Below are positions 1-63,600 of a stretch of DNA of 64,000 nucleotides, piece by piece. Position 1 is the first letter of the stretch; each line of letters begins with the position of its first letter. The stretch lies in IMG/VR virus record IMGVR_UViG_3300042691_048368, positions 1-64,000 of that record; one strand, 5' to 3'. The notes under the pieces were generated by a model. It saw only the letters and a list, made by a program, of their open reading frames with translations. It ran no database searches and had not been told where the DNA came from. Both the position numbers and the translations under genes were made by a program. This DNA is from a virus.

Positions 1-1429
1 TTCTAATGTAACTTCTACCCTTACCAGTATTCAATCTATTGAATATTTCCTGAGCACCAAGTGGTCTAGCATTTTCAAACTTCAGAGAAATTTTAATTGT
101 TGATGGTAAATCATTGAAAGCCAATACCTTACCTAACTCCAAATCAACTGATTTGAGTAACATATCACCAGAAGAGAAAACTGGTTTTTTTGGATTACCG
201 ATAGTTATATGCCAAGGTGTTGATGGGCTACCAGTCAATGCATTTGTAATACCCATCAATCTTACTTTGTATTTACCTATAATAGCTGAAAATGATTTCT
301 TCGTAAATGTGAATGCTTTATTCAAAGGTTCTGTGAAATCGCTTTCTTTCAACTCACCATTCCCAGGTGGACTTACTAGCGCTCTGATAATTTTTTGAGC
401 AAATTCTTTAACTGCTTCAAATATCGATAAGACAATCTTTTTCAATGCATTAAAGATTGCACTAAAATTACCACTAACCAAATTTTGTATAAGTTTATTG
501 GTACCCCTAGCAAAAGCACTACCCATTTGGAAAGCCGCATCCGAAGTTCCAAACGTCAACGCATTTTGTATTATATCTAGATAAACTAAACTAGGATCAA
601 CCCCATTTATGAACTTTTGTTCATACTCAACCACCATACTAACTTCGACAGTAGTAGCCAAACCACTTTCTGCTTGGTCTTTACCAACTGTCTTTCTTCT
701 CTTTGCTTCCCTTATTAGGTTTGGATTACCTAGTGGCAATTGATATGGATTATTCAACAATCCCAGTTTTTCCATGATAACTCTTTGAAGTGGTTCACTG
801 AAGCCTGGAAATGGTAAAAGATTCAAACCTGCAGCAGCAAAATCACCCATATTAGCCATACCTTTTTGATCACTTGACATTTGTAAGTCTTTACCCATGT
901 CATTCAATACATCCGTATAACTAGCGTCAGCTTCAACCCAAACTTCATTATAACTGATATTGAAGAAATTATCCTGACTTTCTGGTATCCAGGATACCAA
1001 AGTAGCCATCGGACTCGAACTTACTGCATGTAAATCATTACCAACTGGTCCAGGAAATCTTCTAGCTACTATGAGTCTGTTGTTTGGATATACCCCTAGA
1101 TTCTTCAGATAAGCAAAATCAGCATAGTCCAATCTCATTGCGTGGTTTCCAGCTTCCCTTGTATACTTTATTATACTATCTATAGATAAATCATAAATAT
1201 TATCATTGTGTATGTCTTTTTGTTTTTTGATTTCCAAGACATTACCATTTTTATCGACACCACCTTTTGTGGGGTGTGGTGAAAATACACTATGATTGAA
1301 TAATGATTTTACCTTTTTACCGGCTTTCAATTTCCCATCAACTGTACCACCATCTATTATTTTATAATTGGGTCCTCTACCCGGTGAGGTTTTAGATGTA
1401 TTATGTGCCAATCCAAGTGGAGATGCCAT
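1..1429 (-). CDS. Virion structural protein, C-terminal part cut by window edge
   Basis: An open frame on the minus strand begins at ATG 1429 and runs off the left edge without a stop, giving at least 476 residues. It starts with a Gly/Pro/Ser-rich, probably extended N-terminus (begins MASPLGLAHNTS). The visible end holds a segment around WHITIGNP, then FSSGDMLLKSVDLELG and a block ending in NRLNTGKGR. From general familiarity this resembles the end of large tail or baseplate proteins of jumbo myophages, but I cannot name a T4 counterpart. There is no signal peptide and no catalytic motif. The gene is followed downstream by nothing in this window and is preceded by a small unknown minus-strand gene at 1463. 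A structural role is inferred from composition and neighbours; the exact position in the virion is unknown. Confidence 0.7.
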   Translation of the reverse strand, partial: MASPLGLAHNTSKTSPGRGPNYKIIDGGTVDGKLKAGKKVKSLFNHSVFSPHPTKGGVDKNGNVLEIKKQKDIHNDNIYDLSIDSIIKYTREAGNHAMRLDYADFAYLKNLGVYPNNRLIVARRFPGPVGNDLHAVSSSPMATLVSWIPESQDNFFNISYNEVWVEADASYTDVLNDMGKDLQMSSDQKGMANMGDFAAAGLNLLPFPGFSEPLQRVIMEKLGLLNNPYQLPLGNPNLIREAKRRKTVGKDQAESGLATTVEVSMVVEYEQKFINGVDPSLVYLDIIQNALTFGTSDAAFQMGSAFARGTNKLIQNLVSGNFSAIFNALKKIVLSIFEAVKEFAQKIIRALVSPPGNGELKESDFTEPLNKAFTFTKKSFSAIIGKYKVRLMGITNALTGSPSTPWHITIGNPKKPVFSSGDMLLKSVDLELGKVLAFNDLPSTIKISLKFENARPLGAQEIFNRLNTGKGRSYIR

Positions 1430-1462: not shown

Positions 1463-1903
1463 TTAATAATCTCTAATTATTTGGCTATTTGTAAACTTGG
1501 TTAGATTACCCAATACATCATCTAGTAATACATTATCTTTTCTAAAATCATTGAAAAAAATAAGGATATTAAAATTATTACTATCTCCCAATAATTTTTT
1601 AATATTCAAAAGTTTTTCTATAGAAAATTCATGCTCAAAATCTGGTACATAATAAATGTCTTTATCCTTTTCTATTGCTAATTGAATTTTCTGATTTACT
1701 AATATCTTAAGATATGTTCTGTCTTTATCGTAGTTTAATTCCTCTTCTTCTAATATTTTCTTAATGTCGACTATATACTTATTTTTAATACGATTAACCT
1801 TGACATACTTATCAAGCTTTTTTCTAGTCTTTACATATACACAATAGAACTCCATATAGAAGAATATTTCCATATTTATTCTATTTTGTTGTTTTCCTTC
1901 CAT
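1463..1903 (-). CDS. Hypothetical protein, 146 aa
   Basis: This is a complete frame starting at ATG 1903. A second in-frame ATG ten codons later (MEIFFYMEF) is an alternative start. The protein is rich in Lys, Asp, Glu and Ile, has no membrane segment, and shows no motif I recognise. It is divergent from the DHH gene at 1948 with about 44 bp between them, and this gap carries an AATATATAA-type promoter motif. It lies 33 bp upstream of the partial virion protein on the same strand and may be cotranscribed with it. Function unknown. Confidence 0.65.
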   Translation of the reverse strand: MEGKQQNRINMEIFFYMEFYCVYVKTRKKLDKYVKVNRIKNKYIVDIKKILEEEELNYDKDRTYLKILVNQKIQLAIEKDKDIYYVPDFEHEFSIEKLLNIKKLLGDSNNFNILIFFNDFRKDNVLLDDVLGNLTKFTNSQIIRDY

Positions 1904-1947: not shown

Positions 1948-3411
1948 ATGAAGATAACTAGATTTCAAAACTGGAGCAAAATAAACGAGGAAGCATCACC
2001 TAGACTTCCAAAAAACGTTGATTATTGGAAAAAAAGAGGGAAAATCGGGAAGGATGTAGCTCTTTACACCCATGATGATATGGATGGTATATTCAGTGCT
2101 ATAGAAGTAAAAAAATATTTACTCAATGCTGGATTCAAAATTGTAAAATACGGTATATTGAACTACTCAGAAGGTTGGAAATATACATCATTAGATCCCA
2201 AACTAATAAATGTCGTTGTAGATTTTGCAAATATGCCTGGTGATGAAAGGGATGAAATGATCGATTTTTATCTTGACCATCATGGTGTCTTCAGTGAAGA
2301 GGAGATAAAAAAATACATGAAATCTCCTGTTCAAAAAAAGAAAACAGGATCTGCCTATGAGGCTATCTGTCAATCACTTGGTGTGCCTCAAGACTCTTTG
2401 ACTGTTTCAGTGATAGACATGATTGATTCTGCTAAATATCAACACTACGGAGTTTCTTGGCAAAGACTACTCGATTTCAATCTCTCAGATATAAAGAAAT
2501 CAGACAAAGCAAGACTTGAGTTTGCGGCAGCTTTCAATCAATTTTTGAAAAGATCTGATACTAAAACAATAATAGGTGTAATTGATAACTGTAATGACGC
2601 ATCTATCTTTGCTATCTATAATGCTATGAAAACTCTTTATCCAGAACATAATGTTGGTAGATATGGAGATCCAAAACAATTCATTGATGATTCATCTTGG
2701 AGATTAGGTGAGATGGGTAGAAGAGTAAGAGGTAGAGGTGAAAAGAAAGTTTATGACACACAAGAAGATTTCCTATCAGCTTTTCAAAGAAATGGTTTAA
2801 TACAACTTGATGGATATCAAATAATAGGTGATTTAGCATTTATTCCAACTGGCACGTGGGCAAATGCATTGAGAGCTAGATCAATCATAGAAAAAGAACT
2901 TTCAGAAGGTAAAATATCGAAAGAGCCGAAATTTATTCTTCTACAATATGGAGGCACACTGCAAGTTTGTTCTTATAAACCAATGGATGAATATGGTGAT
3001 GATTTACCAAAACTAAAATCAGGAGAGGCCGTGACAGATTTGGGAGCTTATATGACTAAATTATTGAAAAATTTTCAAGAACATTTAGGTTACCACAATC
3101 CTGACACATCCTTGGGCCAAGATGAGATTACGGTTTCCGGCGGACATGGAGGCATAGGATCAATTTCGAATATCTTCGGTGAATGTGACAAGGAACCATA
3201 TGTTGGTCAAAGATTTGTAGATATGTTCAAGAATAAAATAATAACAGATTTATCTGGTGTTTCTTTCAATCTTAACATAAAATGGTCCGAACCAAAAGAA
3301 TTTAAGAGTAAGGATCCAGAAATGGACAACAAAGTTATTAGTGCTGAGGATGTAACGAAAATTGGACGTAGCGGTAAGATACTAAGATTTGATGGTTTGA
3401 AAGAAGATTAA
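1948..3411 (+). CDS. DHH/DHHA1 phosphoesterase with N-terminal capsid-tag-like sequence
   Basis: The protein has 487 aa. Residues 41-47 (THDDMDG), 90-94 (VVDFA) and 109-113 (LDHHG) are motifs I-III of the DHH superfamily, whose aspartates and histidines bind two metal ions. Near residues 398-403 a GGHGGIG loop matches the glycine-rich substrate loop of DHHA1 domains. Known family members are RecJ, nanoRNase/pAp phosphatases and GdpP-type cyclic-dinucleotide phosphodiesterases; which activity applies here cannot be told. The first 15 residues (MKITRFQNWSKINEE) do not belong to the enzyme fold and resemble the tag at the start of the core-like protein at 25736, with an INE|E site like the T4 gp21 protease consensus. 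The gene is convergent with the amidoligase (stops adjacent). Enzyme class is well supported; packaging into the virion is inference. Confidence 0.88.
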   Translation: MKITRFQNWSKINEEASPRLPKNVDYWKKRGKIGKDVALYTHDDMDGIFSAIEVKKYLLNAGFKIVKYGILNYSEGWKYTSLDPKLINVVVDFANMPGDERDEMIDFYLDHHGVFSEEEIKKYMKSPVQKKKTGSAYEAICQSLGVPQDSLTVSVIDMIDSAKYQHYGVSWQRLLDFNLSDIKKSDKARLEFAAAFNQFLKRSDTKTIIGVIDNCNDASIFAIYNAMKTLYPEHNVGRYGDPKQFIDDSSWRLGEMGRRVRGRGEKKVYDTQEDFLSAFQRNGLIQLDGYQIIGDLAFIPTGTWANALRARSIIEKELSEGKISKEPKFILLQYGGTLQVCSYKPMDEYGDDLPKLKSGEAVTDLGAYMTKLLKNFQEHLGYHNPDTSLGQDEITVSGGHGGIGSISNIFGECDKEPYVGQRFVDMFKNKIITDLSGVSFNLNIKWSEPKEFKSKDPEMDNKVISAEDVTKIGRSGKILRFDGLKED

Positions 3412-4797
3412 TTACTTCTTGAACGACTTCAAAACACCCTTATCCTTTTTCCTATCGTATTGATCATCATCAAACTTTGTATCAAAGAAGTTATCAGTTT
3501 CGGAAACAATTTTAGTTTCCGAACTTATGTTAGCGTAAGGACCTAATTTTCCACTTCTAAACACACCACCTATCATATCACAATTCAAATATCCACCCAT
3601 AAAGAAACAATCTTTTAGTTGGGTAGCTTCTACCTCACAGTTAAGAATTTTAGTACCAACTATTTCACAACCGTGGATTCTAGATTTAATGATTTGACAA
3701 TTATCGACTTCAGAATTAACGAAGTGACAATTTTCAAAGATACCATTCGTTACTATACAATTTATAAAATCAAACCCTGAGACATTTTGAGAAGTCTTCA
3801 GATTAGCATCGATTATTTCAATTTTTTGTGTTGAGGTAACAAAGTTGATTATACAATCCTCCAACTTTTCGGTAGAGTCAACTAATTTGTGAAGCTTGGG
3901 AAATATTCTATCGTAATATGCGTTTACTATATCATAGGAATATTGTTGGTCAATCTGTAGTGTCACAGTTGGGAAATCAACTATGAAGTTATCATACTTT
4001 GAAAAATTTTTAAAGTTGTTTATATTTTCTTCCAAATATTTTTCCAACTGCTCAATATCTTCATCATTAAATGTAGCTTCTATTGATTTATACACATCTA
4101 ATATGAATCTATCGAAGAAGTAAGTAATTTGACCTATATTTTTCTCGTAATCTTTTCCCCCAATATATCTGAATTCCAATCTTTGAGATTCTTTTGGATT
4201 ATTAATATGTAAGAAGTTTACACCATAGTATTTATCATCGGGTAGTCTTAGAGTATTCTTTACAACATCGATTGGTACACTATTGTAGTCATATTCTTTG
4301 AATGGTATCATTTTCTTTATGGATTTAGCGTAAACATTTCCTTTCCTTGATGGATAGGAACTGTATATCTCATCCTCATCAACCATCAGAATTAATTTCA
4401 AAACATTCAAATCATTCAAGTTTCTATTTTCATCAGCAAATGATATATTAAAGTGTATAGATGATTTTTCATTTGTGTATCCATACATTTGAATGAATTT
4501 TAATATTTTAACCATATAATACTTCGCCTCAAAGTACTCTAATGGTCCAGTTATCATCTCGACCATGTTTGCACCCCCTGACAAGTCTGGCTCAATTTTG
4601 AAATTCTGAGAATCTGGCTTAAAATCGGTATGATATTTTCTAAAACCCCAAACTTTTACAGGTGCTAAATATTGATTCAACAATTCTAAAGTTTTGTAGA
4701 AAGATAGATCTTTCATATAAAATTCAAATTCAAGACCACACTTGGACTTCTTAAGAATTTCCGAATCATTTAAAAACTTTTCTGAATATTTCCTCAT
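3412..4797 (-). CDS. Amidoligase-like enzyme fused to pentapeptide-repeat domain
   Basis: The protein has 461 aa. The N-terminal part matches the amidoligase branch of the carboxylate-amine ligase (GCS) fold: GLEFEFY at residues 21-27 (acidic metal/ATP-binding strand), a KIEPDLSGG...VEMITGPL segment, SSIHFNIS in place of the usual H-x-H strand, and RLEFRYIGG as the E-x-R strand. Family members make amide bonds with ATP. After about residue 340 the chain becomes a run of five-residue repeats with a central aliphatic or Phe residue and frequent Cys/Asn/Ser/Thr, as in right-handed pentapeptide-repeat beta-helices. The gene overlaps the upstream 112-aa gene by one base (TAATG), so the two are translationally coupled. 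Its substrate is unknown. The enzyme family is fairly clear; the fusion is unusual. Confidence 0.75.
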   Translation of the reverse strand: MRKYSEKFLNDSEILKKSKCGLEFEFYMKDLSFYKTLELLNQYLAPVKVWGFRKYHTDFKPDSQNFKIEPDLSGGANMVEMITGPLEYFEAKYYMVKILKFIQMYGYTNEKSSIHFNISFADENRNLNDLNVLKLILMVDEDEIYSSYPSRKGNVYAKSIKKMIPFKEYDYNSVPIDVVKNTLRLPDDKYYGVNFLHINNPKESQRLEFRYIGGKDYEKNIGQITYFFDRFILDVYKSIEATFNDEDIEQLEKYLEENINNFKNFSKYDNFIVDFPTVTLQIDQQYSYDIVNAYYDRIFPKLHKLVDSTEKLEDCIINFVTSTQKIEIIDANLKTSQNVSGFDFINCIVTNGIFENCHFVNSEVDNCQIIKSRIHGCEIVGTKILNCEVEATQLKDCFFMGGYLNCDMIGGVFRSGKLGPYANISSETKIVSETDNFFDTKFDDDQYDRKKDKGVLKSFKK

Positions 4798-5135
4798 TAT
4801 TTAAATTGGGTATTATCTTGTAAATGTTTCCTCAAAAAGGTTTGTAACTTTGGACATTTATTTTCAACATCATTTTTCATTTGATTAAAACCGGATATAG
4901 TAGTGGGATTGTCAAAAATATTTTTTATTGCCATAATTTCCAAATCCGTGACAGTGTTCGAATTTTTGTATTTATTAGAAGTTTTGTAAAGTTCCAAATA
5001 CTCATCTATTAGTTTTTCCTCACATTTTAAAGTACCATTTAAATAAAGTGGTATTATATATGAAGCATATCTTTTTAAAATACTTGGGTCAGGTATAAAT
5101 CTTTTAGATTCTACAACTTTTGTGAATTTTTCCAT
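4797..5135 (-). CDS. Hypothetical protein, 112 aa, coupled to amidoligase
   Basis: This is a small Lys-rich, mostly helical protein with no membrane segment and no recognised domain. Its stop codon shares a base with the start of the amidoligase gene (TAATG), which makes cotranslation and a joint role likely. The start, MEKFTKVVESKRF, loosely resembles the tag seen on several proteins in this window, but the match is too weak to rely on. It could be the amidoligase substrate or partner; that is inference from position only. Confidence 0.65.
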   Translation of the reverse strand: MEKFTKVVESKRFIPDPSILKRYASYIIPLYLNGTLKCEEKLIDEYLELYKTSNKYKNSNTVTDLEIMAIKNIFDNPTTISGFNQMKNDVENKCPKLQTFLRKHLQDNTQFK

Positions 5136-15206: not shown

Positions 15207-15524
15207 TTACATCCTCTGGCTCCAAATAGATTTTGGTTTATTAACTTGAACGCCCGTTTTCCAAAGTCCAAGTCTTAATTTTGAGTCATTATTAAACTCA
15301 CCTCTCAATCTTCCACACTGTTTATCCGTCAAATAAATGTGAAACATCTCCGCATACATATTATCATCAACTGGATTCAAAAAGTATTCGCTATTCGATT
15401 CAAATTCATCCAAATCTTGTATTATGCCAGATCCCCACCCATGGGTTTTTTTTAATATTTTGATTATTCTATCATAATCATATGAATCTTCAAACATTTC
15501 AAAGAATTTCTTGATCCTCATCAT
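15207..15524 (-). CDS. Tagged small protein, 105 aa
   Basis: Tandem ATGs (15524, 15521) begin MMRIKKFFEMFEDSYDY, which fits the Phe-x-x-Phe-Glu tag seen on other proteins of this window. The body is a compact acidic alpha/beta domain without a recognised motif; it contains one Cys-Gly-Arg segment (DKQCGRLRGEF). The start overlaps the upstream 479-aa gene by 26 bp, suggesting translational coupling of two tagged proteins. Packaging in the virion is inferred from the tag only. Confidence 0.6.
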   Translation of the reverse strand: MMRIKKFFEMFEDSYDYDRIIKILKKTHGWGSGIIQDLDEFESNSEYFLNPVDDNMYAEMFHIYLTDKQCGRLRGEFNNDSKLRLGLWKTGVQVNKPKSIWSQRM

Positions 15525-16938
15525 CGGTGTTCGATCTCATTTTGTTCATAATAATCATATTGAAATTGTCAACTGGTTCGAAGTTATATTTAGCATTCAA
15601 TTTGCCCGACATTTCGCCACCACTGAATTTTATATCAATATTACAATTAATAAGAGGTTCATCGTCAAGTTCCATTCTCAGTTTTATTGAAAAGTCATTT
15701 TTTTCTTCTTCTTCATTATCAACAATCAATCTTACATGATAATCAAATTTGATATTTATATCATCATAGAAATCTCTGAAAAACTTTCTTGATGGTACTT
15801 GGTGAAAATCCTTTCCTTTCTTTCCTAAAAAATAAGTTGGTCTTTCTAAACAACCTAATTTTTCCACGAAAGTTTTAATCAATTTCATTTTTACATTGCC
15901 ATCCGCTTTTTTGAATCCATCATCTAATTTTGTAATTTCATCTTTACTATTCGTTAATAAGGAATCTGTAATTAAATGTTCCAATATTTTTGAATTTAGT
16001 AGATAAATTTTAACCTCCATCCACTCATTGAATACTTTTTCAACGTCCAAAAAGCATTGATCTTTATTTTTCCATATTTCACTCATCAAGTCTGAAAATT
16101 TCAAGATATTCTTATCAAATTGTTTGATGTGTTCACCAATATTTTTGAATCTCATATCTCTGTGTTTCAAGTCAAAATATTCAAAATAACCTAGTGTGTC
16201 AATTCTTTCTGGTTCTATAAACTTTTCTATGTGAATTTGAATTGGTTTATTAGCATTTTCATAAATTATTTTAACCCAACTTTGTGTTAATTTATCCCAC
16301 TTTTTGATATACTCCTCATTGTACAAATTTTCTATACCCTTTCCGATAAAATCATCGGCAAATGTATTGAATGATGAAGATTTGGATGTGGATAAAGTTT
16401 TATTTACAAAAATACTGAACTGAGCACCTGATTTCAATTCAATAACTAAATCTTCCCCGTGGTCTTTGTCTTTATTCGGACCAATCCAATAAACTTTTGA
16501 TATAAGGTCTTCTGACAATTTTTCTTCGACCAAAATTTTATCGATAATATTACGAGCTGTGATTCTCGCATCGACCAATTTATTCCAATCTTGTTCGATG
16601 TCAAATTTAACTTCTTCAAAATATCCATTTATTTTTGAATGTTCGGTATCTTCAACACATACGTTATTTTCAAACTTACCCAATTGTAATCTATTTTTCG
16701 CTATTAATAGATTTTTTAAATCCGTAAGAAAAACATTTGAATTTTCTGTATACCTACCTTTCAAACCTCGGTCAAGAAGATTATCTAGAAATTCATTATT
16801 CAATAATATCATACCTACACAAATTTCTGTTATTAAATTTTTTGGCTTATAAATAGTCTTTTCTAAATCATTCTGTGCTTGAACTTTGAATTGGTTTTGT
16901 GCTTCCAAAAAAAGTTCGTAACCTCTTAACCATCTCAT
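15499..16938 (-). CDS. Tagged protein with possible PD-(D/E)xK nuclease-like core, 479 aa
   Basis: The protein begins MRWLRGYELFLEAQNQF, a tag-like start with an LE|A site. Residues 163-190 read EDLVIELK, then SGAQFSIFVNK and a Ser-rich stretch ending in FNTF. The Asp...Glu-x-Lys spacing (D163, E167, K169) followed by a strand and Ser-rich loop recalls the catalytic strand of PD-(D/E)xK restriction-type nucleases, but I see no clear remaining motif. The last 100 residues are beta-rich and acidic. The gene shares a symmetrical promoter region with the divergent tagged gene at 16994. A nuclease function is tentative; the reading frame is certain. Confidence 0.7.
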   Translation of the reverse strand: MRWLRGYELFLEAQNQFKVQAQNDLEKTIYKPKNLITEICVGMILLNNEFLDNLLDRGLKGRYTENSNVFLTDLKNLLIAKNRLQLGKFENNVCVEDTEHSKINGYFEEVKFDIEQDWNKLVDARITARNIIDKILVEEKLSEDLISKVYWIGPNKDKDHGEDLVIELKSGAQFSIFVNKTLSTSKSSSFNTFADDFIGKGIENLYNEEYIKKWDKLTQSWVKIIYENANKPIQIHIEKFIEPERIDTLGYFEYFDLKHRDMRFKNIGEHIKQFDKNILKFSDLMSEIWKNKDQCFLDVEKVFNEWMEVKIYLLNSKILEHLITDSLLTNSKDEITKLDDGFKKADGNVKMKLIKTFVEKLGCLERPTYFLGKKGKDFHQVPSRKFFRDFYDDINIKFDYHVRLIVDNEEEEKNDFSIKLRMELDDEPLINCNIDIKFSGGEMSGKLNAKYNFEPVDNFNMIIMNKMRSNTDDEDQEIL

Positions 16939-16993: not shown

Positions 16994-17626
16994 ATGAGGT
17001 TCATCAAAGATTTCAAAAGGTACCAAGAATCATTAAGAATAGAATTTGGTTATATAGATATAGATATAAATGAGTCATTGGGCTTATTATACGATAACGT
17101 TTTAAAATCCATAGGGGCGGAAGAAATTGATATGTTCGATACATTCCATCTACCCAAAGATGATTTTGCAGATAAAATGAATTTGGATCTATTGACTGCA
17201 AGTACAGAATTTATAAACTCATTATCAAGTATAGGTTTAAAAAATTCGAATGTTACAAATAGTGATGATTTTGAAACTTTTTTCAAAAGACCTTGTAGAT
17301 TCATGATGATTTATCGTATAGAGGCAAATGAACTTGAAAACCCCTCATATATTATATTCCAACCTTGGAGTGATTTGTTAAATAAGTGGGAAGATTGCAA
17401 ATTGTATAAAGTAAATGGAGATATAAAGAATTTTTATGATAAACTCTCATCCAAAGTCATTGAGGTTGAGGATGGTGGTGAAAAATTCATATATCAAACT
17501 TCAAACGGCAACGAATGGAATTTACAAAATTTGGACAAAGCAAATGACACGTATTTGAAATATTTCAGAACTGAAGATTTCGAGAAATTACTCAAAGATA
17601 GAAAAGTTTCTATCAACATAATTTAA
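16994..17626 (+). CDS. Tagged protein of unknown function, 210 aa
   Basis: The start MRFIKDFKRYQESLR fits the tag pattern (hydrophobic, Phe, Tyr, QE|S). The remainder is an acidic alpha/beta protein of about 190 residues with no membrane segment or known motif. It is divergent from the tagged 479-aa gene across a palindromic promoter and ends convergent with the J-domain gene, overlapping its stop by a few bases. Virion packaging is inferred from the tag. Confidence 0.65.
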   Translation: MRFIKDFKRYQESLRIEFGYIDIDINESLGLLYDNVLKSIGAEEIDMFDTFHLPKDDFADKMNLDLLTASTEFINSLSSIGLKNSNVTNSDDFETFFKRPCRFMMIYRIEANELENPSYIIFQPWSDLLNKWEDCKLYKVNGDIKNFYDKLSSKVIEVEDGGEKFIYQTSNGNEWNLQNLDKANDTYLKYFRTEDFEKLLKDRKVSINII

Positions 17627-20215: not shown

Positions 20216-21931
20216 ATGAATTTAACAGAGATCTCCTTTGCTAAAGTAAAAACCGAAATAGAGAATTTCTTAAAAACTGAATACTCCAAATCGAGTATTG
20301 TATTTTCGAATGCTAGTCCATTTGGGCAAGTATTATCTGTACTCGAAAATCTTTATCAACTTTCCATCCTTTACATGAAGAATTCAATTAAGCAATTTGA
20401 CATGTTGGACCCATTAGCTGTAAATGCAAGAGCTATAAGAAATGCAGCTATCTTTGCTGGTCACATACCAGCTAGAGCTGTGAGTGCGACAGGTACTTTG
20501 AAATTCAGTATCAAAACCTCAGTCGATATAGCTAAGGAGGTACCTGGTTCGAGAGTCACGTTCCTAAACCGTATTAGTATGAAAAATAAGACTAATGGTT
20601 TGGAGTATGCAATAAATCTTGGTACAGATCAAGTTACTTATCAAGTTAGTTCATCTACTCAGTTTTTCGTATCGATAATACAAGGAAAATGGGAAAGTAA
20701 GAATTTCACTTCTTCAGGTGAACAAAACCAGACATTCCAAGTTAAAATAAGAGGTAAGAAAGAAGTTGAAAATTTTAACTATGAAGTTTTAGTAAATGGT
20801 GACTATTGGACAATAAAAAAACATTTGTATGACTTATTACCAGATGAGAATGCCTGTGTAATCAGAACTGGTTTCGAGGGTGGTATCGATGTGATTTTCG
20901 GCAATTCTGGTTTTGGCGCTATACCACAAATCGGATCATTAATCGAAATAAAATATTTGGTTAGTGATGGGTCAAATGGTTCCATATTTAGAAGAACACA
21001 AAATGATTGGACTTTTATTGATCAACCTCTAGATGGTAATGGTAATTCATTGGATGTTTCGAATATTTTCGACATAGCTATTTATAATGATATAAATTTT
21101 GGATCTGATTCTGAAAATTTACAGTTTACAAAAAATGTTCTACCTATAGTAAGTAACAATTTTGTTTTAGGTTTACCTCAACAATATGCTTATCAAATAA
21201 AGAAACTTGGTGTATTTTCACACGTAAATGCTTATGAAAGGTTTGGCACAATATATGTTGTTGCAACTCCGAATATAAAATTATTTAAAAGTCAAAATTC
21301 CAATTACTTCGAAATTAATATTTCAGCTTTTGATTTAGATGATTATGAGAAATCAAAAATTGACAGATACATAAGAACCGGTGGAAATATTCAACTTACT
21401 AGAAAGTATAAAATTACTTCACCAGTGCTTTCATACTACGTGATGAACGTATTTATAATAACTTATTCGGATGCGAAGGATGACAATGTAGACTCTCAAA
21501 TATATGAAAAAATTTCAGAGTATTTCCTTAATCTAAATCGTATAGATAGAATTCCAAAGAGTGATATGGTCCAAACATTATCATCTATAGGTGATATACA
21601 TTCGGTCGATGTGTCTTTCATATCAAGAAAAAATGAAGAATATCATAAAAATGCTATGATGGAAGATTCAAATCGTAGAAATACTTATGCTTCGAAAGAA
21701 GCGAATCAGATATCCAGACCTCTACCAACATATAACCCAAATACCACATTAGGTTTGGATAGCATATTAGGAGATATATTATTTGAACCAAGTGAAATTC
21801 CGATAATTCGTGGAGGTTGGTTTGATAGAAGTAGTTTTTATTATTCAGATGATTTGAAAGATAATGGATTGAAATCTGTTAACATTATAAGGAAGGGTAC
21901 TGTAGACTCTTCTAGAAGACAAAAATTATAA
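20216..21931 (+). CDS. Baseplate wedge protein, T4 gp6-like / baseplate J type
   Basis: The protein has 571 aa. The N-terminal helical part (LSVLENLYQLSILYMKNSI, then NARAIRNAAIFAGHIPARA) and the middle segment (RTGFEGGIDVIFGNSGFGAIP followed by LIEIKYLVSDG) match the gpJ/gp6 baseplate wedge family, in which a FGDGxxGxxP-type turn precedes a strand ending in L-x-x-G. gp6 dimers form the wedge ring that holds the tail tube hub. The C-terminus has a TYNPNTTLG segment like that of large-phage homologues. It is the first gene of a plus-strand cluster with the 84-aa gene 4 bp downstream. Family assignment is firm; the exact homologue name is inferred. Confidence 0.85.
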   Translation: MNLTEISFAKVKTEIENFLKTEYSKSSIVFSNASPFGQVLSVLENLYQLSILYMKNSIKQFDMLDPLAVNARAIRNAAIFAGHIPARAVSATGTLKFSIKTSVDIAKEVPGSRVTFLNRISMKNKTNGLEYAINLGTDQVTYQVSSSTQFFVSIIQGKWESKNFTSSGEQNQTFQVKIRGKKEVENFNYEVLVNGDYWTIKKHLYDLLPDENACVIRTGFEGGIDVIFGNSGFGAIPQIGSLIEIKYLVSDGSNGSIFRRTQNDWTFIDQPLDGNGNSLDVSNIFDIAIYNDINFGSDSENLQFTKNVLPIVSNNFVLGLPQQYAYQIKKLGVFSHVNAYERFGTIYVVATPNIKLFKSQNSNYFEINISAFDLDDYEKSKIDRYIRTGGNIQLTRKYKITSPVLSYYVMNVFIITYSDAKDDNVDSQIYEKISEYFLNLNRIDRIPKSDMVQTLSSIGDIHSVDVSFISRKNEEYHKNAMMEDSNRRNTYASKEANQISRPLPTYNPNTTLGLDSILGDILFEPSEIPIIRGGWFDRSSFYYSDDLKDNGLKSVNIIRKGTVDSSRRQKL

Positions 21932-25735: not shown

Positions 25736-26776
25736 ATGAAAGTCGTAAAATATTCGGAATATTCAAAAATTAATGAGGAATTTGTTTTGAGTGCTATAAA
25801 AGGTGCGCTTGGTAAATTGTTTGGATTTTTCGCAAATGCTTTCAAAGATTTGGGTGCTGATTTTAAATCTATGTTCAAAGAGGATGACCCTTCCACTATA
25901 AAAGACATAGTAATGAAAAATGTTGACCAAGCTGTTGATGGTGCTCAAAAGGAAATCACCAATCTAAAAAGTGATGGTGATGTATTGGGTATAGTGGATA
26001 ATATGGTGACTCAATTAGTTGAACTTGGTAATAACATTACTAAAGATGTTGAGGGTGCTTTAGGTAAGGAAAAATCAAAACCTGTTGAGGAAATCTCAAA
26101 AGCGTTACTACTTGGAAATAAAGAAGTGGATTGGGTTGGTATAGTTGGTGCATTGGATCCAGCGGCAGGAATTTTGAAAAAAGACATAAATTTTGCATAC
26201 TCGAAGAAGAAATTCGTTGAGTCAGTAAACAAGGGTAAAGATTTGAATCAGAAAAAAACCTTGGCTTCAAAGTTTCTTGATGATTTTCAAAAAACAATAA
26301 GGGCTGAATTAGAAAAAGCAGTGACCGATGAAGAGATAAAAACTCTTTATGATAAAATGAAGGGTGGAGACGCTGGTACTGATTTGGAATTGAAGGAAGG
26401 TGATATGGTTGTGTATCTCCTCAAAGGAAAGAAAAAAGAGGAATTTGATGAAAAGAAAAAACCTGAAGAACAAAAAGATGTAGTTGGTGTAAAGAAAATC
26501 GAAAAAATAGATGGTGATAAAATAACATTTCTAGATAAAGACGGTAAACCTACAATTTTAAAAACAAAAGCTGAAATACTAAAGAAGGTTGAAGTTGAAA
26601 TGGGCCAAAACGCAAAGAAGGTTGCAGACTCACTTGGAAAAATCAAACAAGACGAGGAAAAAATGGGTAAAGTTGCTACTTTCGCTGAATTTATTCAAGA
26701 TGATAAAAATAAAGACAAACTAGCTGAAATAGAAAAAATACTTTCTGGTGGTGAACAGCCAGCCGCACAAGCATAA
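25736..26776 (+). CDS. Core/internal head-type protein with capsid tag, 346 aa
   Basis: The start MKVVKYSEYSKINEEF contains the same SKINEE site as the DHH protein and matches the proteolysed T4-type capsid-targeting sequence. The body is Lys/Glu/Ala-rich and helical (ALGKLFGFFANAFKDLGADF, then long charged helices), with a small beta domain around residues 220-275 (GDMVVYLLKGKK...VVGVKKIEKIDGDKITFL) like an SH3/KOW unit. A TFAEFIQDDKN segment lies near the C-terminus. The composition suits an internal or scaffold core protein. The 240-aa gene follows with TAATG overlap. The role in the head is inferred. Confidence 0.65.
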   Translation: MKVVKYSEYSKINEEFVLSAIKGALGKLFGFFANAFKDLGADFKSMFKEDDPSTIKDIVMKNVDQAVDGAQKEITNLKSDGDVLGIVDNMVTQLVELGNNITKDVEGALGKEKSKPVEEISKALLLGNKEVDWVGIVGALDPAAGILKKDINFAYSKKKFVESVNKGKDLNQKKTLASKFLDDFQKTIRAELEKAVTDEEIKTLYDKMKGGDAGTDLELKEGDMVVYLLKGKKKEEFDEKKKPEEQKDVVGVKKIEKIDGDKITFLDKDGKPTILKTKAEILKKVEVEMGQNAKKVADSLGKIKQDEEKMGKVATFAEFIQDDKNKDKLAEIEKILSGGEQPAAQA

Positions 26777-32543: not shown

Positions 32544-33266
32544 ATGAAAATAAAAACTCTTTTCATTAGTGACATACATCTTGGAAATCCAAATTCTCAA
32601 GCTGATAAATTGTTAAGAATTTTAAAAGAGTATGATTTTGAAAATCTTTTCATAATTGGTGACTTCATCGATATGACTTATCTCAAAAGAAAGTTTTATT
32701 GGGATCAAAATCATTCGACTGTTATACAGAAGATCTTGAGACTATCAAGAAAGGGTTGTAAGGTGACTTACATTTTGGGAAATCATGACTATTATATAAG
32801 AAGTGTAATTGAAGAAGGAAATATACATTTCGGAGAAATCCTAATTTGTGATGATTATGTTTATCAAACTAAAGGTGGTGAAAAAATCTACCTTACACAT
32901 GGTGACTGTTTTGATGGTTTTGTGAGAATAAGTCCGTGGTTATATTGGTTGGGGGATGTTTCATATGAGTTGTCAATAAAAATAAACAAAATATACAATT
33001 GGTTCAGGAGATTATTCAAATTAGAATACTGGTCCTTTTCAGCTTACATGAAAACAAAAGTAAAAAGTGCAATTAGTTTCTTGTCTGAGTATAGGAAGAT
33101 TTCTGAAGTCAAAATCAAGGAAATGAACTGTGACTCAATAATGATTGGTCATACTCATAATCCTGAAATAAGTAATAATTATTATAACACTGGCGATTTT
33201 TGCGAAAGTTGTTCTTATATCATTGAGGATCTTGATGGTAATATAAAATTATTATATGTGAAGTGA
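32544..33266 (+). CDS. LpxH-like calcineurin-type phosphoesterase, 240 aa
   Basis: All metallophosphoesterase motifs are present: SDIHLG (9-14), GDFID (39-43), GNHDYY (79-84), THGD (118-121) and GHTHNPE near residue 202. A following NTGDFCESCSY segment is typical of UDP-2,3-diacylglucosamine hydrolase (LpxH-like) proteins, which cut the nucleotide from a lipid A precursor. It overlaps the GT28-like gene by 4 bp with a GTG start. The two are presumably one operon whose function is change of the host envelope. LpxH identity is likely but not distinguishable from other members by sequence alone. Confidence 0.78.
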   Translation: MKIKTLFISDIHLGNPNSQADKLLRILKEYDFENLFIIGDFIDMTYLKRKFYWDQNHSTVIQKILRLSRKGCKVTYILGNHDYYIRSVIEEGNIHFGEILICDDYVYQTKGGEKIYLTHGDCFDGFVRISPWLYWLGDVSYELSIKINKIYNWFRRLFKLEYWSFSAYMKTKVKSAISFLSEYRKISEVKIKEMNCDSIMIGHTHNPEISNNYYNTGDFCESCSYIIEDLDGNIKLLYVK

Positions 33267-45618: not shown

Positions 45619-46743
45619 ATGTCAAAAATTCTAATTATTGGTGATACCCACTTAGGTCTTGGTTACCCGAATTCGATTGATAAATGGTTTAAAGTACACA
45701 GGGAATATTTTGAAGAATTTTTAATTCCTTTAGTTCGGAAAGAAATGACCGAAGATGATATTATAATCCACTGTGGAGATTTATTTGACAATCGGTCAGT
45801 GGTTCCGATTAATATACTCAATTACGCACAAGATCTCCTCGAAAAACTATCTTCTATATGTCCGGTGCATATACTAATTGGTAATCATGATTTGTACACT
45901 AAAGCCTCTAATGATGTGAATACTGTCAAATTATATAAGTATATACCAAACATTACCGTTTACGAAAAGCCTACCAAAATTGATTTTTGTGGAAAGTCAA
46001 TATTGATGTTACCTTGGGTTGAGAAAAAACAAGACCAAATTGACATACTAAAAAGATTTTCTGGTTGTGATTATCTTTTCTGTCATTCGGATTTGAACGG
46101 TGCAAAAATGCATTTGACCTCTGTTGCACATAAAAATCAAGATAAAATAGATGTGGAAGATTTTTCAGGTTACAAAAATGTATATTCTGGTCATATACAC
46201 ATCTTGCAAGTCACAAAAAATTTCACTTTTGTCGGTAATAATTTTGAAATGGATCGAAATGACATTAACAATCAAAAGGGAATTTTTATCTTAGATACTT
46301 TGGTTGACGAGGAGAGATTCATTCCTAATAATATTTCACCGAGATACAAAAAGATATACATAAGAACTCAAGAGGATATTGATCAATTAGAAAACACTTC
46401 GACAAAAGATTATATTGATCTTTTCATATCAAATTCATTGTTGATAAACAATAGGAAATTAAGAAGAAAGTTAGAGTTAATGTTGGAATCCGGTAACTTT
46501 GCTTCAGTTGACTACATCGATGATTTAGTTTTGGAAAAAAATGAAGAAACTAAATCTGTGATTGAAGAAATTACTGAAGAAGAATTAAACAATGGTGTGG
46601 TTCCATCTATTCAATTAGAATATACTGATTTAATTAGACAATACATTAATACTCAGAAATATGAAAGTGAGAAGATCAAAAATGGCGTCTTACAAGAGTT
46701 TAATGAAATTGCTAGAATATATGATGAGGGTTATTTAGAATAG
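45619..46743 (+). CDS. gp47/SbcD-like nuclease subunit, 374 aa
   Basis: I use ATG 45619; a GTG one codon earlier is in frame. Motifs of the Mre11/SbcD/T4 gp47 family are complete: GDTHLG (8-13), HCGDLFDNR (51-59), GNHDLY, FCHSDLNG and SGHIHILQ. gp47 with gp46 resects DNA ends for recombination and degrades host DNA. A gp46 (SbcC-like) gene is not in this window. The C-terminal 130 residues are charged and helical, the likely partner-binding part. The end overlaps a convergent tagged gene by 13 bp. Confidence 0.85.
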   Translation: MSKILIIGDTHLGLGYPNSIDKWFKVHREYFEEFLIPLVRKEMTEDDIIIHCGDLFDNRSVVPINILNYAQDLLEKLSSICPVHILIGNHDLYTKASNDVNTVKLYKYIPNITVYEKPTKIDFCGKSILMLPWVEKKQDQIDILKRFSGCDYLFCHSDLNGAKMHLTSVAHKNQDKIDVEDFSGYKNVYSGHIHILQVTKNFTFVGNNFEMDRNDINNQKGIFILDTLVDEERFIPNNISPRYKKIYIRTQEDIDQLENTSTKDYIDLFISNSLLINNRKLRRKLELMLESGNFASVDYIDDLVLEKNEETKSVIEEITEEELNNGVVPSIQLEYTDLIRQYINTQKYESEKIKNGVLQEFNEIARIYDEGYLE

Positions 46744-47033
46744 TTTGGTTTTCTTCCACTACCTTTAGATCCGGTACTCTCTGCTTTTCTTTTCCTAGCA
46801 ACCGCTGCTTTCTTTTGTTTCGCCGACATCTTAGCGGCAACCCTTACTTTTCTGCATTTGGGATATCCACCTTTACTTGTGTCAGACCTTCCGCATGGTG
46901 GATGAGACCCATCTTTATTTGTCTTGGAAATATCAACCCATTTTTCTTTGAACCATTTATCGAGTCCACCATGAGAACCCTTATATGATTTTTCCTCATG
47001 GATGAAATCTTCAAATAATAGTAGATGTTCCAT
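46731..47033 (-). CDS. Tagged small basic protein, DUF5872-like, 100 aa
   Basis: The start MEHLLLFEDFIHEEKSY is a clear tag with IHE|E site. The remainder, LDKWFKEKWVDIS, HPPCGRS, GGYPKCRKVRVA and then a Lys/Arg-rich tail (KQKKAAVARKRKAE), matches the small Cys-containing unit I know as DUF5872 from large phages and giant viruses. Two Cys may form a metal site or disulfide. It overlaps its upstream neighbour by one base. The basic tail could bind DNA in the head. Family recognition from memory; function unknown. Confidence 0.72.
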   Translation of the reverse strand: MEHLLLFEDFIHEEKSYKGSHGGLDKWFKEKWVDISKTNKDGSHPPCGRSDTSKGGYPKCRKVRVAAKMSAKQKKAAVARKRKAESTGSKGSGRKPNYSK

Positions 47034-47535: not shown

Positions 47536-48114
47536 TCACCAGAAACCTGGATATGTTTTTCCTCCCCAAAGATTTGCATATCTATTAGCCCTACAAGCCC
47601 AGTAACCTGGTTTGGTCTTATCCTTTTTCAAATGGCACTGATGTCTTGCAGCAAAAGCTTTTCTAGCTTTAGGATCAGAAACCTTTGCACTCAGACCACC
47701 TTTAGCATCACCAAAGTTTACTACTTTAACTTTTTTTGTCTTGGGATTAATCACATAAACTTTGTATTTTTTTGGACCCGAGCTTCTCATAGGTTTGCCT
47801 ATTGGAACTTTTTTTCCATGATATTCGGCTTCGTTCAAATCTTCGACTTCTTCTAATGGTAAGTCCAAAGGTACCATTTCACCTTCGTATTCTGCAAATT
47901 TACCAATATCAGTTGTTTCAAATAAAATTTTATCTATTCCCGATAATTCTACTTTATTAGTATCAAACAAAATTCTAGCTTCCTTTATTAGATCATAGAA
48001 CGAATTGGAACCAGGTCTGAACACATTTTCCAAAACGGGAAGGTTGTTATCGACATGATATTTTAGATTCTCACTGATTGGATGAAAATTATCGAATAGA
48101 TTAATATATTTCAT
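47536..48114 (-). CDS. Tagged protein with basic Cys domain, 192 aa
   Basis: The start MKYINLFDNFHPISENLK is tag-like with an ISE|N site. The C-terminal 75 residues (KYKVYVINPKTKKVKVV..., DPKARKAFAARHQCH, KTKPGYWACRANRYANLW) form a basic unit with two Cys that I know from other large-phage proteins. The middle is acidic and flexible. It is the first gene of the cassette 48114-46731 and is divergent from the giant baseplate gene. The tag and basic domain fit a packaged DNA-binding cargo. Confidence 0.72.
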   Translation of the reverse strand: MKYINLFDNFHPISENLKYHVDNNLPVLENVFRPGSNSFYDLIKEARILFDTNKVELSGIDKILFETTDIGKFAEYEGEMVPLDLPLEEVEDLNEAEYHGKKVPIGKPMRSSGPKKYKVYVINPKTKKVKVVNFGDAKGGLSAKVSDPKARKAFAARHQCHLKKDKTKPGYWACRANRYANLWGGKTYPGFW

Positions 48115-57682: not shown

Positions 57683-60600
57683 TTAGTCGTCAATTAGACT
57701 TGATTTTTCTTTCTTTTTAGCATTAAGATATTCTTGTAGAGAAACCTTGCCATCTTTAGATCCACCAACTATGACACCAGCTATTGACCCGACGATTGAG
57801 TTGAGTGCTTTGATTGCCTCAGTCAAATTCTTCATTGTATCTTCTGGTGTCTGTTTCGGAGTGGTGGCAGTTGGAGTTTTTACTGCAGCAGTCGTAGTTG
57901 GTTTGGTGCCTGGTTTAACTTCTGCTGGTTTTGTAGGTTTAGCTTCCATTGCAGCTGGTGCTGATGATTGGGTATCTTTCATCACATCTACAAATATCTT
58001 AGCTTTACTCTCTAAGGATGTCATCATTGACTCGAATTGAGCGGAATCCATAAGAGATAACATTACTATAGAACCAGAAAGATTTTTTAACATAGTCATT
58101 CTCTCCATATCAACCGCTCCTAATTGTCCATTAAGATTTGTTAATGCTTGTGATAGTCTATCATATGCTTTAGCTAATTCAACCATCGAATCAGCCATAT
58201 CGCTCACCGAATCATAATCAGCATCAGCTTCTTCAAGTGATTTTGTTATGTTGATGTATGATGTAGTACTATCAGCTAAGTTTTTGAAATATTTTGGGTC
58301 TAATATTTTATCGAATTTACCTCTAGCTAATTTTTGTGAAACAATTACTAATGAGTCTGCTATGGCACTGACACCTGATTTGAATTTATCTTCGCCACCA
58401 GATAATAAACCTTCATTTTGTTGAATGTAATTAAGTCCTGGTAGTACAGCATTTATTGCAGTGCTGAAACCTTGTGACCATTCCAATTTTGGTACTTTTC
58501 TTAAATCGAAAGGTACCTTATTCTCATTAAATTTGGTCGCAAGTTGAATTATACCATCGGCTAATTGATTAACTTTATCAGTTGTGGACGTTGAAAGAAA
58601 GGAAAATAAACCATCCCCTTTGAATGTATTCAGCATCTGTGAGAATGATACAAGATTAACTCTCAAAGAATCCATCCAAGCTTTTGGAATTACTTTACTG
58701 AAGTTTCCTCTAGCTATAATGTGTGATACATTTTTAAGATTTGTAGCCAATTCTATCATTTTCTCAAGTTTGTCCTCATCAACTTTGTAGGCTTCCATTA
58801 CTTTTGTGATGCTCAAAAACGTCGAAATGTTAATCTTAGTGTTAGCCATGTAATTTGCTGGGATGTCCTTGTAATTACCTGTCGACAATTTATTACTTAT
58901 AGAAACTAGTGTGTCGGTAGCTTTGGACAATTTATAGAAGTCGCCATCTTCATCCATATCGATGTCGGCTTCATCTAGTTGTTGAAGTATCAATGTAAAT
59001 TCATTGAAGGTGAGTTTCACATTCTGTCCCCATTTAGGATCGATTATTGTTGTGAAATTCCCCCCACTTATAGTTCTACCAGCTTCAGCAATAGCTTGTG
59101 ATATCGCTCTCATATTAGTCACAGTGGTTTCGGCACCATCTGTAAACCAACCACTTTGTTCACTGATATATTTCAATGCTGGTATAAATGCTTGGAACGT
59201 GTCATTGACTGCCTGTCCCCATGCTTTTTTAGGAACTTTATTCAAATCATACGAAACACCCTCTCCCCCAAGAGCTTTTGCGGCTTCAGCAAGACCCATA
59301 CCTATAGACTGAATTGCTAACTTGTATGTTTCTGGTTTGATTGGTCCACTAAACCAACCCGAATCAGCATTGAGAACTTGGAAAACACCAGTAAAGGCTT
59401 GTAATGCTGTTGACACGCCTTCTGCCCAAGCTTTAGTCGGACCTTTCTTGTAATCTTCGGTGCCCCTACCAAGCTCTGTAGCTGCTGTGACTATACCTTG
59501 ACTTATAGAAACTATTGCATTTTTAAAGTCATCTACACTCACACCACTTTTCCAAACACCTTGATTATCGACCAAAATTTTGTATATAGGTGCAAATCCA
59601 CCAAGGGCTAGTGATACACCCTCTGACCATTCTTTACTAGGTCCTTTCTTATACTCTTGTTCTCCCTTAGCTAATTCTGTGGCGGCGGATTTTATACCTT
59701 GTGAGATTGTTACAATAGCAGTGGCAAATTGTTCGGGTGTGACACCGCTTCTAAAGAATTCGATACCAGCATTATCTAGTAACATCTTATAGACTTGTCC
59801 AAATGCACCTATAGCTAGAGATACTCCTTGTGACCATTTGAAATCTGGTCCACCTTTGAAATTCCCTTTACTCAGATAAAAGGCTGCTGTGTTAATCGAT
59901 TTGGAGATAGTTACGATAGCTTCTCCAAACTCTTTTGGTCCAACTCCACCACCGAACAAGTCAAATATTGCATTAGCGAGAAGCATTTTGTATACCTGTC
60001 CAAATGCACCAAGTGCAATCGCAACTGAAGAAGCCCACTGTTTAGTAGGTCCACCCGTGAAATTTCCTTTTGATAATTTATTAGCTGCTTCTACTATTGA
60101 ATCGGAGATCATCAATATTGACTCAGAAAATGCTTTTGGTCCAATATCTGCTCCTCCAAATAAGGACATAACAGAATTTGCTACCAACATCTTATAAATG
60201 TCACTAAATGCAGCTAGTGATAGAGCAACACCACTAGCCCATTGTACAGTGGGCCCATTGCCATATTTACCTTTAGATAATATTTCAGATGCCAAGACAA
60301 CAGTCTCAGCCACTCCTAATACCGCAGCAGCACCGAGTGCTAAAGCTGCGGCACCTAGTCCAAAGGATCCTGCAATAATTGCACCAAGTGTACCCATGCC
60401 CGTTGCAAATCCAGTCAACGCAAGTCCAACACCTTTCGTCCATTCTATTGATGGATAATTAGTATATTTACCAACCGATAGTATTTTGTCTGTAGCCACT
60501 ACAACTGCTGCGACAGCTAATAATGCGACACCTCCTACTATGACTAATGGTAACATTGGTCCTAATAATACAGCAGCTAAACCAAATGGCACCATAGCGG

Positions 60601-63600
60601 CGGCTGTCTGTAAAGTCCACTGATATGGTACTGGTTTGGTATAATCACCTTTGTTTAGTATCATACTAACCGCCATAACGGTTCCTGCTATAGCTATTAT
60701 TGCAACTAATCCTGCTAAAATTGCTAGGGCACCAACACCAGAGCTTGCTATAGTACCTAACAGTACGGCTGCTATACCAAAAGGTATCATGGCGGCAGCT
60801 GCTCCTAAAGTCCAGGCAAAACTTGGGTATTTGTTGTATTCGCCCATATTTAGTAAAAGAGATGAGACGTATATAGTAGCTGCAATTGCGATAATTGCGA
60901 TTCCCCCCTTTATTGCTTGTGCAACTGATAAGCCTACTTTATCAAGTAGGTATATTGCAAAACCAAAAGATACCATAGATAGTGCAGCATTGATCAACCA
61001 AGTGAATGATGGGTATTTATCGTAAGTACCCTTACTCAATATTAAAGAAGTTGCAAGAATTGCTGCTGATATGACAACAAGAGAAATAGCACCTTTCAAT
61101 ACTTTTGTTGGTGTCATTTTTAGTTTATCAAGTGCAAAAATTGCGTAACCAAATCCAACCATTGCGATTCCCGCAAAGAAAATCCAAGTAATAGATGGAT
61201 ATTTATCATACTTGCCAATTGACAAAATTAGAGATGTGGCAACAACTGCAGCCGATATTATTACCAAATTGATTGCCCCATCTATCATTGTTTTCTTATT
61301 GAACTTCGAAAGTCTATTGAAAACAAAACTCATTCCAACTCCTATCAGACCAAGTACTATCGATATACCAACAGCATTGACCAATTTACTGAATGGTACT
61401 ATTTTGATTTCCGACAAAATATAGGAGCTTAACATTATTGTCAATGCCATTGCTACCAATATTATTGGGACTAGAGCCATCTTGGCGGGACTTACATTTG
61501 ATATACCTTTAGTTATGTAAGGTATAGCAAATGATATAGGTATAAACACAATTGCTATCAATACAGCGGTCAGTGCTTGGAATAATCCTATCGGTTTTAC
61601 ACCAGCAAGAAGGAATGATGATCCCAAAATTGCCGCTGAAACTGCTATTAGAAGTATGGGTAGTATCACGGATGCTAAGATCGCTTTTCCTTTACTGATC
61701 CCTTCCATACCTTTCAGTAGTTTACCTAGACCATAACCTATTACTGCAAATACACCAGCTATAAAAACAGATGTAATAAGTTGGAATAAACCAACTGGTT
61801 TTACACCAGCTAATAGGAATGATGAACCTAAAATAGCTGCTGAAATTGCAACCAAGACTAATGGTAGTAGTGGTATCATTGCTATACTTTTCACACCCAA
61901 CTTACCTAAGCCACTCAATAAACCACCTAAACCATAGGAGACTGCTGAAAACATTGCAGCAATTAGTATCGAAGTTATCATTTGGAATAAACCAACTGGT
62001 CTTACCATTCCGAGTATCTGTGATGACGCGGCGATTGCTAAAGAAATACCTACCATTATGAAAGGTAAAAGAGGTACCATTAAAAGTCCTTTACCACTAA
62101 TCTTACTTATACCAATCAACATTTTACCGAGACCATATGACAATACGGTAAACATACCTGCAATCAATATGGCGGTAATCATTTGTAATACTCCGACCGG
62201 TCTTACCGCTGCTAAAATAAATGATGATAACATTACTGCGAGTGATATACCAACCAATACTGCGGTGAGTCCAGCTGCCCTTCCTGGTGTCAAATTTTTA
62301 GCTTCAGCTAATTTAGTGAAAGCAATTGCGAGTACCGATATAGCAATACCGAGACCTAGCACAGAAGCGAAATTAACATTTCCTACTATTTTAAGTGCTA
62401 GACCAATTGCTAGTACGCCAGCCGCTATCAATATTATTATCTTGAGACCAGACTGTATCTTTTGTGTCTCTTTCGGATCACCAGCTTTTCCAAATATTCC
62501 ACCATCTTTATCAGACTTAGCTTGTGATTCAATAGTCCTAGGTTTTGGTTTTTTGTACTTAACTTCTACTTCAACTGGTTTAGGTTGTGGTAGTATTGGG
62601 GGTTTTGGTCTACCAAATTTTAAACCTATTTCAGGCATTTTTGGTAAAGATGGAAACTTAGGTAGTTTCGGTTTCAAAAATTCCAAATTTATGTTTGGCA
62701 TCTTTGGTAAAGATGGGAACTTTGGAAGTTTTGGTTTTTGTATTGATAAAGATAAATCCGGTAGTTTTGGTAACTTTGGTAACTTTGGAAGTTTCGGAGT
62801 TGTAAAACCAAGATCTATTTTCGGAAATCTTGGTAATTTTGGCATTTGGGGCAATTTAGAGACTGCAAAATCAATACTCGATTTTATTTTTGGTACAGTA
62901 GGTAATTTTGGTAACTTAGATACCGTAAAATCGATACTTGATTTAATATTTGGTACATTTGGTAATTTTGGCAGTTTTGATACGGTAAAGTCAATAGTTG
63001 ATTTGAGACTCTTTACCGTCGGTAACTTTGGTAATTTAGATACGGCAAACTCAATACTCGACTTCAAATTCTTCACCGTCGGTAATTTTGGCAGTTTTGA
63101 TACGGCAAAGTCAATAGTTGATTTGAGACTTTTTACCGTCGGTAATTTCGGAAGCTTCGATACTGCGAAATCAATACTTGACTTTAAATTCTTTACCGTC
63201 GGTAATTTTGGTAATTTGGATATGGCAAAGTCAATACTCGATTTCAAATTCTTCACCGTCGGTAACTTTGGTAATTTGGTTACGGCAAAGTCAATAGTTG
63301 ATTTGAGACTCTTTACTGTCGGTAATTTTGGCAGTTTTGATACGGCAAAGTCAATAGTTGATTTGAGACTCTTTACTGTCGGTAATTTCGGAAGCTTCGA
63401 TACTACGAAATCAATACTTGACTTTAAATTCTTTACCGTCGGTAATTTCGGAAGCTTCGATACTACGAAATCAATACTTGATTTCAATCTAGGTACCGAT
63501 GGGAATTTTGGAAATTTGCCAATTATAAACTCAACAGTTGATTTTATATTTGGTATTGTTGGAAGCTTAGGAATTTTCGAAAAAGATAGATCGATACTTT

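Follow-up and report, generated by a model that had tools for sequence, protein, structure and literature searches.

A predicted amidoligase fused to a pentapeptide-repeat beta-helix beside tail genes of huge phages

Introduction

Ligases of the glutamine synthetase (GS) type activate a carboxylate with ATP and transfer it to an amine. The Pup ligase PafA, which has a GS-type fold, acts on carboxylates and amines of proteins. The pentapeptide-repeat proteins MfpA and Qnr form helices that are long and strongly acidic. Among jumbo phages, gp196 of Atu_ph07 and gp125 of Salicola phage SCTP-2 show detectable similarity to the enzyme core described here, and gp125 is not detected by the Amidoligase_2 family (PF12224), which groups putative bacterial and phage amidoligases. 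Both carry a long extra sequence in their first half, and no C-terminal pentapeptide repeats are visible in either. The Atu_ph07 amidoligase, which is gp196 when genes are numbered backwards from gp215, the major capsid protein, lies two genes from the portal. According to PMC6102473, the cluster that contains it (CDS 170-215) has a high proportion of virion proteins detected by mass spectrometry.

We analysed a 64-kb stretch of viral DNA (the window), taken from a virus record of 94,997 bases, and found a gene that joins an amidoligase core to a predicted pentapeptide-repeat beta-helix. The fold and both domains are already known. No description of the amidoligase-pentapeptide fusion was found in the literature searched, nor do those papers appear to describe that it is fixed or that it occurs widely, as a single copy, in huge phages.

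Results

Domain layout and amidoligase core

The 461-aa ORF and the 112-aa ORF beside it lie exactly where the sequence-only reading had placed them (Table 1), and the two overlap by one base (TAATG). At the other end of the enzyme gene, at 3411/3412, its stop codon abuts that of a convergent DHH-like gene with zero bases between them.

Table 1 Features of the amidoligase locus and related tail genes in the window.
Feature	Position	Strand	Basis or remark
Amidoligase/pentapeptide-repeat fusion protein, 461 aa	3412..4797	-	ORF; 85 distinct full-length homologs; whole AlphaFold2 model with mean pLDDT 87.6, pTM 0.81
Amidoligase (predicted GS-fold) core, residues ~16-240	4078..4752	-	hhalign, structural match, conservation
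Helical linker, residues 241-311; predicted helices 245-264, 268-274, 288-308	3865..4077	-	AlphaFold2 model
Predicted pentapeptide-repeat beta-helix and cap, residues 332-432	3502..3804	-	Pentapeptide_4, period-5 test, model, AlbG-like/MfpA match
C-terminal tail, residues 433-461	3415..3501	-	Poorly conserved (0.42); low confidence (pLDDT <50 from residue 433)
112-aa clade-specific protein, not a conserved partner	4797..5135	-	Start-stop overlap with enzyme gene
DHH-phosphoesterase-like protein, 487 aa, family F1	1948..3411	+	Convergent; frequent neighbour in the window's clade
F4, small conserved protein, ~130 aa, first gene of hub/wedge operon	1463..1855	-	Start from homologs (MEFYCVY); ORF opens at 1903
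F3, large tail-operon protein, cut by window edge	1..1429	-	In relatives precedes gp53-like wedge F2 and hub F5
Baseplate wedge subunit (gp6-like)	20216..21931	+	phrog_219 1.5e-13; N13 profile 1.6e-161

The 461-aa protein has no strong match to any annotated family. Taken alone it gives no match to PF12224 at E<=1, the window's own record gives none, and NCBIfam returns matches at chance level only; a family profile is needed for detection. Relatives at 32-36% identity do match PF12224, three distant ones above the curated cut-off (L121, 5.5e-6; L094, 3.1e-5; L104, 1.2e-4). A family profile built from 59 relatives matched five PF12224-type proteins with 98.4% probability (hhalign, E 4.6e-15), and an unrelated adaptor profile, used as a negative control against the same target, reached 0.1%.

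The two families share the same core in the same order, namely E-x-E, D-x-S, E-(I/L/M)-(V/I)-(S/T)-(P/G), H-x-(H/N), R, (K/R)-Y-x-G-x-N and E-F-R-x-x-G, and differ in that the second histidine of HxH in PF12224 is N117 in the window family. The aligned motif pairs (window family/PF12224 proteins) are EPDLSGG/VADGSL, VEMITGP/AEIVSPI, SSIHFNIS/CGVHVHL, PSRK/NERR, KYYGVNF/RYRGLNL and RLEFRYIGG/TVEFRYFNG. The strands on which the enzyme had originally been recognised, GLEFEFY (21-27), SSIHFNIS (~113-119) and RLEFRYIGG (~207-214), are all present and form part of this core. In 59 aligned rows E23, E25, D71, S73, E80, R151, K189, Y190, N194, E208 and R210 are invariant and H115 and N117 nearly so; conservation across the protein is among its highest at the catalytic motif residues.

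The modelled first ~250 residues match glutamine synthetases, with a Z score of 12.5 over 195 residues. The predicted fold over residues ~1-250 is that of glutamine synthetase and gamma-glutamylmethylamide synthetase (Z 11-12.5); identity to these enzymes is ~10%, and no GS family is matched by sequence. The closest viral models (BFVD) include proteins named amidoligase. A sequence search of the PDB, run with the profile of the distant clade, returned no relative of GS; the link to GS is drawn from the structural match together with PF12224 membership. The proposed amidoligase identity is thus borne out by the profile-profile comparison, the Pfam matches of relatives and the predicted GS fold. 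With its catalytic residues mapped by sequence and family profile, the gene product is a PF12224-type amidoligase with a predicted GS-type active site.

Predicted pentapeptide-repeat beta-helix

The C-terminal five-residue repeats that had been read by eye are real and span ~80-90 residues, as judged by Pentapeptide_4, a period-5 test and the model. The Pentapeptide_4 match in the window protein has an E value of 5.4e-6, with a Pfam score of 26.8 that lies below the curated 38. Residues ~332-418 carry strong period-5 hydrophobic and small-residue signals that are absent elsewhere in the protein. In 80-residue windows the hydrophobic signal is ~14 in the repeat region, whereas every window inside residues 1-360 gives 0.05-1.2; none of 20,000 shuffles reached the value of the repeat region. 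The period is strong in most family members and weaker in the most distant clade.

AlphaFold2 models this region as a solenoid, with short strands every five residues from ~342 to 380 and longer strands from there to 418. The helix ends in a conserved GG(V/I)FRxG (GGVFRSGKLG in the window), in which R414 is invariant. The family profile matches the solved pentapeptide proteins McbG-like/AlbG and MfpA, and Qnr weakly. The confidently predicted solenoid and the sequence match to solved members are compatible with a putative right-handed quadrilateral beta-helix. AlbG/McbG-like proteins, MfpA and Qnr have the five-residue repeat and, by prediction, the beta-helix in common with the C-terminal arm of the window family, which differs in being short, mildly charged and permanently fused to an enzyme. 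The helical linker and the beta-helix behind the core were not seen in Atu_ph07 or in the bacterial PF12224 members compared.

A fixed fusion in huge phages

The fusion is kept in every relative that was found: all 85 distinct members collected are full-length fusions, with ORFs of 432-483 residues. Scanning the viral collection with a pattern gave at least 502 relatives. Each of ten complete or large huge-phage records carrying the family has one full-length copy, the extra short matches in W01 and W03 being partial. Among the ten are the largest phages described in PMC7162821, with genomes of 634-735 kb. Of the complete genomes found, the nearest belong to two uncultured huge phages, LR756502 (642 kb) and LR745206 (635 kb), with 62-63% identity at the protein level. 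The bacterial genome collection yielded a single match, to a MAG contig of 5.9 kb that is probably phage DNA.

The 112-aa neighbour is not a conserved partner

The 112-aa protein had been suggested as a coupled small partner or possible substrate of the enzyme, an idea that fails because most enzyme-bearing loci lack it. Its gene occurs in 5 of the 85 distinct members, the window and four close relatives, which form one clade in the tree (support 96) with a single inferred gain; a separate scan of the viral collection revealed no further copy in any other contig. The C-termini of the protein vary (QFK, LD, VD, TFK), with no conserved Pup-like GGE/GGQ end among them. The family has the predicted GS-type fold in common with the Pup/PafA system but lacks a conserved Pup-like partner. 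The model of the 112-aa protein is helical, of low confidence (pLDDT 51) and not interpretable.

In other members the gene beside the enzyme belongs to F4, F7, F34, F35 or F40 or is unrelated, and F7 and F34 are among the neighbours that also overlap the enzyme gene, by 1-4 bases. Since several different neighbours do so, overlap alone is no mark of a partner. We rejected the 112-aa protein as a conserved partner; it is at most a lineage-specific accessory and a recent add-on.

Tail and neck gene context

In the window's clade the enzyme adjoins the F4-F3-F2-F5 operon, which encodes the hub and a gp53-like wedge. F2 matches baseplate wedge families, and F5 has an endolysin domain and is homologous to the hub of the distant clade (hub family common to both clades, hhalign 1.6e-30). 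In the window's clade the hub lies within ~5-8 kb of the enzyme. No homology was detected between F3 and N23, the large pre-hub proteins of the two clades.

The examined contigs of the distant clade have a near-constant gene order of S1-domain protein, amidoligase, head-tail adaptor, sheath-initiator-like protein and baseplate wedge; in the longer loci, hub, N23 and spike come before these genes. These assignments rest on matches of 1.2e-25 for S1, 3.3e-15 for the adaptor Ad2 (phrog_211), 1.9e-24 for the baseplate wedge (phrog_219) and 2.7e-26 for the spike (phrog_37871); the Sheath_initiator match is weak. The protein immediately upstream of the amidoligase within this tail operon has three S1 RNA-binding domains (L121:3653-4894), and it holds the same position across the distant clade. 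The 64-kb window yielded no match to the distant clade's adaptor, sheath initiator or S1 protein, the record being a fragment. A homolog of the window's gp6-like wedge sits in the distant clade's amidoligase operon.

In seven loci of the main clade on the window's side, the adaptor lies no more than 4 kb from the enzyme. It is far from the enzyme in several huge phages, including the nearest complete relatives of the window, so adjacency to the adaptor is not obligatory.

The DHH-like F1 family is present in most loci compared. Its PF01368 match is 7.5e-4 for the window protein and 2.4e-5 for an ortholog, both below the Pfam cut-off. Endonuclease-like ORFs also adjoin the amidoligase: F35, GIY-YIG-like by eye, lies directly upstream in L012, L016 and L033, and F12 is adjacent in L005, L021, L040, L074, L081 and others. 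Both look like mobile insertions.

Discussion

We tentatively propose that the fusion protein is a late ATP-dependent amide-forming enzyme that is brought by its beta-helix to a protein of the phage tail, neck or baseplate. The enzyme would be made late in infection and its beta-helix would serve as the docking arm. The core would then activate a carboxylate with ATP and join it to an amine, supplied by another chain, by an amino acid or by a polyamine; a virion protein would in this way be modified or cross-linked before or during assembly. Amide-forming chemistry is proposed because the protein belongs to the amidoligase family. The target is suggested by gene position, a weak pointer, which makes a tail, neck or baseplate protein possible and in any case a better candidate than the 112-aa protein. 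A wider claim is more doubtful, namely that a dedicated GS-type ligase, aimed by a beta-helix, introduces amide or isopeptide bonds into the tail, neck or baseplate proteins of huge phages, as an ATP-driven covalent maturation of the contractile tail.

Other readings of the same gene have to be weighed against this one. The enzyme could act on the host envelope late in infection, where it would attach amino acids or amines to surface carboxylates such as those of peptidoglycan peptides and so block superinfection. Such a role has already been proposed for phage amidoligase/GATase pairs, as stated for phiEco32 in PMC10580990, citing Iyer 2009. Scanning of the recurrent neighbours, however, turned up no recognisable glutamine amidotransferase, and the reading accounts neither for the fixed beta-helix nor for the location among tail/neck genes; we consider it rather unlikely. 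GS-fold ligases often use small molecules, and the protein might accordingly make a soluble amide metabolite or decorate modified DNA bases. This is distinctly unlikely, for a docking beta-helix suggests a macromolecular target and no base-modification genes were recognised beside the amidoligase. The recurring structural gene context would also suit an enzyme fold that has been retained as a part of the virion and no longer catalyses anything, yet the catalytic motif residues are among the best conserved in the protein, which makes such an exaptation improbable.

The resemblance of the family profile to AlbG-like, MfpA and, weakly, Qnr structures raises the idea that the helix binds host gyrase, which the enzymatic part would then modify or block. 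That resemblance may reflect the shared repeat alone. The earlier suggestion of DNA mimicry is weakened by the helix itself, which at ~80-90 residues is short and, with a median net charge of -4, no more than mildly acidic in comparison with the long, strongly acidic helices of MfpA and Qnr, and a topoisomerase role is in our opinion very improbable. Least credible is a dedicated enzyme-substrate pair in which the 112-aa protein is the tag: the start-stop overlap suggests co-translation within the window's small clade, but the protein's restriction to that clade, its variable C-terminus and the lack of any other occurrence found speak against such a pair. The reading that we prefer, if tentatively, remains that of an enzyme docked on a protein of the tail, neck or baseplate. 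Modification of a virion protein, if it does occur, would add a new type of enzymatic step to tail assembly; failing that, the gene still provides a marker for the huge-phage lineage and a concrete enzyme for assay.

Other features of the window

Similar short leaders (M-K/R-x-x-x-x-F...I-N-E-E-A, e.g. MKITRFQNWSKINEEAS) open the proteins of the window's ORFs at 1948-3411, 25736-26776, 15207-15524, 15499-16938, 16994-17626, 46731-47033 and 47536-48114, and a similar one is found on the F1, F7 and F34 proteins of relatives. We take these short leaders to resemble those that target T4 internal head proteins to the capsid. The window also contains a gene for a calcineurin-like metallophosphoesterase (32544-33266; PF00149, 5.2e-14), and two long ORFs that overlap on opposite strands, at 57683-63868(-) and 62058-63815(+).
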